Source: Pseudooceanicola algae (GTDB lineage Bacteria > Pseudomonadota > Alphaproteobacteria > Rhodobacterales > Rhodobacteraceae). Taken from it: a stretch of DNA of 64,000 nt. The notes under the pieces were generated by a model that worked only from the letters and a program-made list of their open reading frames with translations, had not been told where the DNA came from and searched no databases. Of this stretch, positions 10,917-56,424 are shown in pieces. A program made the translations under genes and the position numbers. Every line of letters begins with the position of its first letter. The stretch's first letter is position 1. Location of the stretch: NCBI RefSeq assembly GCF_003590145.2, contig NZ_CP060436.1:1150001-1214000 (forward strand). The letters are read 5' to 3'.

Positions 10917-10921
10917 CAGCA

Positions 10922-11006
10922 CTCGACGGTGATGCTGCCTAGCGGCGCGTCACCTTCATACCTCCCTGTTGGACTTGGCCGGACCTTGTGTCCGGCCTTT
11001 TTTTTT
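10922..11006 (+). ncRNA. Candidate small RNA with CCTCCC anti-Shine-Dalgarno motif
   Basis: About 85 nt. It has a 5' hairpin (GGTGA/TCACC closing GCTGC/GCGGC, about 10928-10953), an unpaired stretch containing CCTCCC (10961-10966), and a perfect 8-bp terminator stem (GGCCGGAC/GTCCGGCC) followed by nine T residues (10998-11006). No ORF of useful size lies between the promoter-like element and the terminator. The architecture is that of Hfq-type sRNAs with a C-rich seed; CcsR-type sRNAs of Rhodobacter have CCUCC motifs too, but I cannot assign it to that family. Confidence 0.5.
10977..11006 (+). terminator. Strong intrinsic terminator of the candidate sRNA
   Basis: A perfect 8-bp GC-rich stem with a 5-nt loop is followed by nine T residues. 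No coding gene ends immediately upstream, which is the main reason to suspect a non-coding transcript. Confidence 0.85.
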
Positions 11007-54384: not shown

Positions 54385-55818
<1,434 letters not shown>

Positions 55819-55825
55819 GTCTTTT

Positions 55826-55913
55826 GTCCTCGTCCTCGCGCGCCAAAGGCACTTCGCCCGCGGGCGGCTTACAGGATCCTTTGGCAGAGGAAAACGAGGA
55901 AGCGGCCCGCGAG
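55826..55913 (-). promoter_or_regulatory. Structured cysS leader with mutually exclusive stems
   Basis: An 8-bp stem pairs 55842-55849 with 55878-55885 (GCCAAAGG). Outside it, two pairings cross and exclude each other: 55835-55840 with 55908-55913 (CTCGCG), or 55827-55833 with 55894-55900 (TCCTCGT), the latter covering the cysS ribosome site. The first lies directly after the Cys leader ORF, as expected for ribosome-sensitive control. Confidence 0.5.
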
Positions 55914-55920
55914 AATGCTC

Positions 55921-55965
55921 TCAGCAGGGAATGATGCAGCCGGTAATGAGGCAACGCTTCGTCAT
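55921..55965 (-). CDS. Candidate cysteine leader peptide of cysS
   Basis: The ORF encodes MTKRCLITGCIIPC: 14 residues with three cysteines, the last codon before TGA being TGC. No ribosome site precedes it, but a promoter-like pair places the transcription start at or within 2 nt of the ATG, so it would be leaderless, as trpL of Sinorhizobium is known to be. An in-frame ATG 12 nt further up overlaps the -10. The role as a sensor of charged tRNA-Cys is inferred from content and place. Confidence 0.5.
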   Translation of the reverse strand: MTKRCLITGCIIPC

Positions 55966-55972
55966 GGCAAGC

Positions 55973-56001
55973 GGCATAGCGCGGCGACGGGTCTTTGCCA
56001 A
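55973..56001 (-). promoter_or_regulatory. Candidate promoter of the cysS leader
   Basis: On the minus strand: TTGGCA (55996-56001), 17-nt spacer, TATGCC (55973-55978). It predicts a start at about 55965-55967. Confidence 0.45.
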
Positions 56002-56079: not shown

Positions 56080-56424
56080 ATGAACCGCCACCTTCTGCAC
56101 CAGATCTGCGCCCCCCTGCCCGGAGCCGAGGTTTCGGATCCCTGGGGCGGTCATGATGCCTGGAAGGTGGGCGGCAAGATGTTCGCCTCGGTCGGGGCGC
56201 GGGATCTGGGCGTTGCGGTCAAGACAGCCGATGCCGATTTCGCGCGGATGATGATCGAGGCCGGGGATGCAGAGCGCGCGCCCTATTTCCACGCCAGCTG
56301 GATCCTGCTGCGCTGGAGTGCGCCAGAGACTCTGATCCGCGACCGGGTGGTGATCTCCTACGATCTGATCCGGTCGAAGCTGACGAAAAAGGTCCCCGCC
56401 GGGATGGCGGAGCGCGCGCCGTGA
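56080..56424 (+). CDS. MmcQ/YjbR family protein
   Basis: The 114-residue protein has the CyaY-like fold pattern of the family: LLHQICAPLPGAEVSDPWGGHDAWKVGGKMFASV at the start and APYFHASWILLRW, then ISYDLIRSKL. Some members bind DNA; no specific role is known. It overlaps the next gene by 4 bp (GTGA). Confidence 0.87.
   Translation: MNRHLLHQICAPLPGAEVSDPWGGHDAWKVGGKMFASVGARDLGVAVKTADADFARMMIEAGDAERAPYFHASWILLRWSAPETLIRDRVVISYDLIRSKLTKKVPAGMAERAP

Follow-up and report, generated by a model that had tools for sequence, protein, structure and literature searches.

A predicted leaderless reading frame with cysteine codons and two alternative RNA helices precedes cysS in Rhodobacterales and Hyphomicrobiales

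In Pseudooceanicola algae, the gene for cysteinyl-tRNA synthetase (cysS) lies on the minus strand of the window, that is, the whole 64-kb stretch of DNA analysed here. Its product matches TIGR00435 with 421 bits (cutoff 340). A gap of 102 nt (coordinates computed by script) separates its ATG at 55818 from a short upstream open reading frame (uORF), whose codons, read directly from the sequence, are ATG ACG AAG CGT TGC CTC ATT ACC GGC TGC ATC ATT CCC TGC TGA. The original prediction had described a 14-residue ORF with three TGC codons, cysteinyl-tRNA synthetase as the next gene 102 bp on, and a promoter-like TTGGCA-N17-TATGCC ahead of the ATG. All three features are present as described (Table 1). 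A generic sigma-70 scan of the window found no promoter at the leader, because the scan accepts a −10 box only if its sixth base is T. Upstream, at 56080-56424 on the plus strand, lies a divergently oriented gene, which encodes a YjbR-domain protein (PF04237, 51.5 bits). About 115 nt separate its start from the leader ATG, and the two promoters share this gap. Elsewhere in the window, a SorX small RNA (RF02784) is found at 10918-11003 on the plus strand, with 56.1 bits against a gathering threshold of 46.6.

Table 1. Positions of the cysS leader elements in the window.
Feature	Position	Strand	Remarks
−35 box, TTGGCA	55996..56001	−	Located by script; spacing to ATG kept in both orders
−10 box, TATGCC	55973..55978	−	17-nt spacer; 7 nt before uORF ATG
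uORF (predicted leaderless), MTKRCLITGCIIPC*	55921..55965	−	Cys codons 5, 10 and 14; read directly
Strand A, CCTGCTGAGA	55919..55928	−	Last codons, stop codon and 2 nt; pairs with B in free RNA; A:B covaries
Strand B, TCTCGCGGGC	55905..55914	−	Pairs with either A or C
Pyrimidine tract Y, CTTCCTCGTTTTCCTC	55887..55902	−	Complementary to cysS Shine-Dalgarno
Strand C, AAGCCGCCCGC	55860..55870	−	Complementary to B; B:C covariation
cysS Shine-Dalgarno region, GAGGACGAGGAC	55826..55837	−	Paired with Y in minimum-energy fold
cysS, cysteinyl-tRNA synthetase, 477 aa	54385..55818	−	TIGR00435

By itself, the Cys-rich ORF of the window is only mildly unusual. When the 300 nt before cysS are dinucleotide-shuffled, 0.3% of the shuffles contain an ATG-initiated ORF of 8 to 22 aa with at least three Cys residues, and nine comparable Cys-rich short ORFs occur in the whole window, counting both strands. 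Composition is thus weak evidence, and the significance of the uORF comes from its conservation and from the spacing between promoter and ATG.

We collected cysS loci from 40 relatives, 80 named genome contigs, about 200 genomes of the order, the class, and the Hyphomicrobiales (the order containing Rhizobium), and read their upstream DNA for uORFs. This comparison had been proposed along with the ORF itself, and a Cys-codon ORF with its ATG and stop is present upstream of cysS across Rhodobacterales and Hyphomicrobiales. Rhodobacterales uORFs mostly encode 13 to 15 aa and lie about 80 to 140 nt before cysS (e.g., MTTKRCIIICCIITC, MKSNAIIICCIITC, and MNCICIIICCITC). A model built solely from the sequence of the Rhodobacterales leader matches 88 of 101 Rhodobacterales genomes, nearly always once in each, and the matches adjoin cysS wherever coordinates were compared. 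The P. algae genome contains one significant match to this model; all its other matches have E values of at least 0.14. The leader is absent before cysS at a few Rhodobacterales loci (e.g., L035, L039, L049, and L134). Short divergent leaders at L111, L112, and L126 (MDWICCLCRA, MTRLICICC) keep Cys and have lost the usual Ile pattern. A same-genus relative, G013, carries a second, more distant cysS-like match (C9:58584-59894; 52% identity).

A second model, built for the Hyphomicrobiales leader, finds matches in 60 of 101 Hyphomicrobiales genomes. The leader reads MKTVICIICRKIIR in Rhizobium leguminosarum and Ensifer, MKTSFAICGICIIG in Mesorhizobium, MKTKCTIIACIITC in Devosia, and MTTATRNRISILIICS in Stappia. 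A class-wide search with this model returned, beyond the two orders, only a few convincing matches, comprising a small family (G314 and G366) and L246. At L246, from another alphaproteobacterial family, the reverse strand before cysS has an ORF, MARTPRNCRLIITG, followed by TAG, a possible Cys/Ile leader; inspection by eye found no Cys/Ile leader before cysS at L245 and L247.

The position of the promoter is conserved together with the uORF. We analysed the promoters of 138 relatives, with 64 regions from Rhodobacterales and 74 from Hyphomicrobiales. Of the ATGs that open short ORFs, the one of the leader receives the highest promoter score in 63 of the 64 Rhodobacterales and 63 of the 74 Hyphomicrobiales regions. 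In both orders, the −35 element (TTG) and the −10 element lie about 36 and 12 nt before this ATG, respectively, and the base at −1 is C in 57/64 and 54/74 regions. When the ATG is picked in any frame by promoter score alone, it shares its frame with the hairpin stop in 62/64 Rhodobacterales and 72/74 Hyphomicrobiales regions. Transcription is thus predicted, from promoter spacing, to start at or beside the A of the leader ATG, which would make the uORF leaderless. The original prediction of a leaderless ORF gains support from a promoter-to-ATG distance that is conserved in two orders.

Codon counts were made on 129 distinct leaders from relatives (61 Rhodobacterales and 68 Hyphomicrobiales). 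About one residue in five is Cys in Rhodobacterales leaders, whereas Cys accounts for 0.9% in cysS; the leaders were chosen partly by their Cys and Ile content, which inflates the counts of these two residues. The uORFs are 8 to 20 codons long and differ by whole codons, and Cys is kept although its position shifts, with both TGC and TGT in use. The 3′-most Cys, setting the final codon aside, lies four or five codons before the stop in 55 of the 61 Rhodobacterales leaders. In about half of the Hyphomicrobiales leaders, the Cys codon lies at least six codons before the stop. Tandem Cys codons are common in relatives; the window has Gly-Cys (GGC TGC) instead. The codon directly before the stop is NGC (TGC, CGC, GGC, or AGC) in nearly all leaders and pairs in A:B. 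All three TGC codons noted in the original prediction are present, but the third, which lies within hairpin strand A, is probably structural, serving RNA pairing rather than acting as a control codon.

One Ile is nearly invariant. It stands three codons before the stop in 54 of 61 Rhodobacterales and 67 of 68 Hyphomicrobiales leaders and is more constant than the Cys codons across the 129 relatives. In 107 of these 121 cases it is encoded by ATT, a codon that accounts for 20% and 12% of Ile codons in cysS of the respective orders. Although Ile entered the score by which leaders were picked, choosing the ATG by promoter alone gives nearly the same ORFs.

The leaders also share three RNA strands: A covers the end of the uORF and its stop, some 10 nt separate it from B, and C is placed close to the ribosome site of cysS. 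Because B takes part in both A:B and B:C, these helices exclude each other, in Rhodobacterales as in Hyphomicrobiales. The two mutually exclusive pairings that had been predicted, one of them over the cysS ribosome site, were found, with Y covering the Shine-Dalgarno. Compared with shuffled sequences, the A:B segment is more stable in Rhodobacterales (mean z −1.8; 59% with p ≤ 0.05) and in Hyphomicrobiales (−1.4; 35%), and B:C has mean z scores of −0.9 and −1.6, respectively. One leader, L022, has an extra stretch, GGTCGGGGCCCCCGACC, in the A:B loop between the uORF stop and B, which forms a GC hairpin of its own.

RNAalifold on MAFFT alignments gave no or few pairs, because the C side aligns poorly. 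In its place, we used cross-species pairing and anchored column counts. Strands pair better with their partners from the same species than with those of other species for A:B (z −2.9 in Rhodobacterales and −4.2 in Hyphomicrobiales) and for B:C (z −5.7 in Hyphomicrobiales and, weakly, −1.4 in Rhodobacterales), while the controls A:C and A:Shine-Dalgarno show no own-species preference. Column counts give 57 double-change cells for A:B in Hyphomicrobiales against 28 in shuffles, and 55 for B:C in Rhodobacterales against 34 (each reached in 0 of 500 shuffles, which ignore kinship among species). The Y:Shine-Dalgarno duplex has an energy of −17.5 kcal/mol in the window; across species, this pairing is not significantly better within a species than between species (z about −1.2). 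A C:D hairpin abutting the Shine-Dalgarno, attractive by eye, was dropped, as its fold z scores are near zero (means −0.2 and −0.5). The leader matches no known structured RNA in Rfam 15, the T-box model included.

We modelled the effect of a ribosome by partition-function folding, with the nucleotides under a 12-nt footprint held unpaired. In free RNA, the pairing probability is 0.67 for A:B and 0.27 for B:C in Rhodobacterales, and 0.70 and 0.26 in Hyphomicrobiales. With the A-site codon at −15, the Rhodobacterales values become 0.13 for A:B and 0.75 for B:C; with it at −12, A:B falls to 0.01 and B:C rises to 0.85 in Rhodobacterales (0.10 and 0.77 in Hyphomicrobiales). Across the family, masking A raises B:C to 0.75-0.88. 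Given where Cys lies in 55 of 61 Rhodobacterales leaders, stalling there would therefore flip the fold. The start region opens slightly on masking: accessibility of the Shine-Dalgarno changes from 0.33 to 0.41 in Rhodobacterales (p about 0.005), and that of the wider start region from 0.36 to 0.42 in Hyphomicrobiales (p 5e-5). Stalling is thus predicted to switch cysS on. The direction of control, which the original prediction had left open, is in this model that Cys stalling turns cysS on at the level of the family.

The computed switch is less general at the level of single leaders. In Hyphomicrobiales, Cys occupies a clearly flipping position in only about one third of leaders, and in about half, a ribosome with a 12-nt footprint would stand too far upstream at the Cys codon to cover A. 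A ribosome at the stop codon would mask A too, which we count against the stalling model. The window's own leader, unlike the family, shows no switch on masking at equilibrium: in its full-length RNA, Y stays paired with the Shine-Dalgarno in every state, and in RNA truncated at C, B:C is kept in every state. A kinetic argument, based on the order of synthesis, is therefore needed there.

Taken together, we consider it probable that this is a ribosome-mediated attenuator, in which the Cys codons of a leaderless leader peptide sense the charging of tRNA-Cys and control cysS. The suggestion that ribosome stalling at Cys codons could tune cysS draws support from the conserved uORF, the leaderless spacing, and the family-level folding. 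We infer that the uORF is translated and that control runs as follows. Transcription would start at or beside the leader ATG, where, judging from promoter spacing, a ribosome would load directly. When charged tRNA-Cys is plentiful, the ribosome would finish and leave, A would pair with B, and cysS would be off, its ribosome site paired (in this window, with Y). In some Rhodobacterales, where A:B is followed by a U-rich stretch, it may act as a transcription terminator as well. Under a shortage of charged tRNA-Cys, the ribosome would stall at the Cys codons and cover A, B:C would form, and cysS would be on. Terminator and ribosome-site masking fit the same sign. As the output step, we tentatively favour control of the ribosome site as the mechanism common to both orders.

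The window's leader is a member of a kind already described in Rhodobacterales. The uORFC-8-2 motif comprises 145 examples, exclusively from Rhodobacterales and directly upstream of cysS, with a conserved AUG uORF containing Cys codons; ribosome-mediated attenuation was proposed on computational grounds only (RNA Biol 2021, PMC8632094). Among the papers searched, no other uses this name. The window likewise has a conserved AUG uORF with Cys codons upstream of cysS, in a member of the Rhodobacterales. In the published motif, the Cys codons stand at peptide positions 14-15, inside the first stem, and a U-run after the second stem forms an intrinsic terminator; the two tandem Cys codons are called "highly conserved" rather than universal (PMC8632094). 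In contrast, Cys here usually precedes the stop by four to five codons (codons 9-10 in peptides of 13-14 aa), the window lacks tandem Cys, a leaderless start is predicted from promoter spacing, there is a second helix, B:C, and the leader extends to Hyphomicrobiales, without the U-run there. The T-tract after A:B in the window is weak. New here, then, are the occurrence in Hyphomicrobiales, a leaderless start predicted from the promoter, the alternative helix B:C, a predicted sign of control, and the Ile codon.

The best-surviving alternative is the one proposed for uORFC-8-2 (PMC8632094), that is, plain transcription attenuation, in which A:B is an intrinsic terminator and stalling leads to readthrough, with no masking of the ribosome site. 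In 59% of Rhodobacterales leaders, an 8-nt window starting 0 to 4 nt after A:B has at least five T. However, only 3% of Hyphomicrobiales leaders have such a stretch, and the tract after A:B in the window, CCGCTTCCTCGTTTTCC, has by eye at most four T per 8-nt window. Furthermore, B:C forms only once the polymerase has passed the terminator, so that its conservation would be left without explanation. We regard this alternative as possible, with perhaps a quarter of the weight.

An alternative that we consider unlikely is a dual sensor, in which the upstream Cys codons report tRNA-Cys and the Ile codon at −3 reports tRNA-Ile; the leader would then respond to a lack of Cys as well as to an excess. 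Excess Cys can starve cells of Ile through inhibition of threonine deaminase. The constancy of this Ile and its ATT bias relative to cysS fit this alternative, and in both orders a ribosome whose A site holds the −3 codon covers strand A. Yet the ATT bias also suggests a constraint at the RNA level, such as an unpaired AU spacer, and Ile content entered the rule by which leaders were chosen. There is only a slim chance that a leaderless peptide reading two amino acids, through mobile Cys codons and a fixed Ile, sets cysS translation in both orders without an intrinsic terminator. The nearly invariant Ile codon lies outside what current models explain.

It is very improbable that the conserved element is RNA structure only, for instance one to which a protein or small RNA binds, with an untranslated ORF. 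The three strands are conserved at the RNA level, and the last codon obeys the constraints of the hairpin, but an ATG set by promoter spacing reads in frame into the hairpin stop in 134 of 138 regions, length varies by whole codons between that ATG and an in-frame stop, Cys codons are kept at shifting positions in either spelling, and Rfam offers no known structured RNA. A chance Cys-rich ORF before cysS, for which the nine comparable ORFs in the window might speak, is refuted because the ORF and its distance from the promoter are conserved in two orders, and we give it almost no credence.

The favoured ribosome-mediated attenuator resembles several known systems. Like classical attenuators, it has a leader peptide with Cys codons and, across the family, exclusive helices (B:C being weaker in Rhodobacterales); the predicted stall position would mask the first strand in most Rhodobacterales leaders, but not in about half of those from Hyphomicrobiales. 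The trpL leader peptide of Sinorhizobium meliloti (peTrpL) is a leaderless 14-aa peptide of an alphaproteobacterium, as predicted for the uORF here, although it belongs to a tryptophan transcription attenuator, with another amino acid and another target gene. Mycobacterial polycysteine leaderless small ORFs are described as Cys-responsive attenuators (Canestrari et al. 2020, cited in PMC9094748); by that description they share Cys codons and the leaderless start predicted here, in another phylum and with other target genes. T-box riboswitches also sense tRNA charging upstream of aminoacyl-tRNA synthetase genes; the locus has no Rfam T-box match, and here we propose sensing by the translating ribosome.

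Our results widen a prediction once limited to one order; they add that the uORF is probably leaderless and predict in which direction cysS is regulated. They offer a testable model for the way in which rhizobia, the relatives of Rhodobacter, and the rest of a very large bacterial group may match cysteinyl-tRNA synthetase to charged tRNA-Cys.
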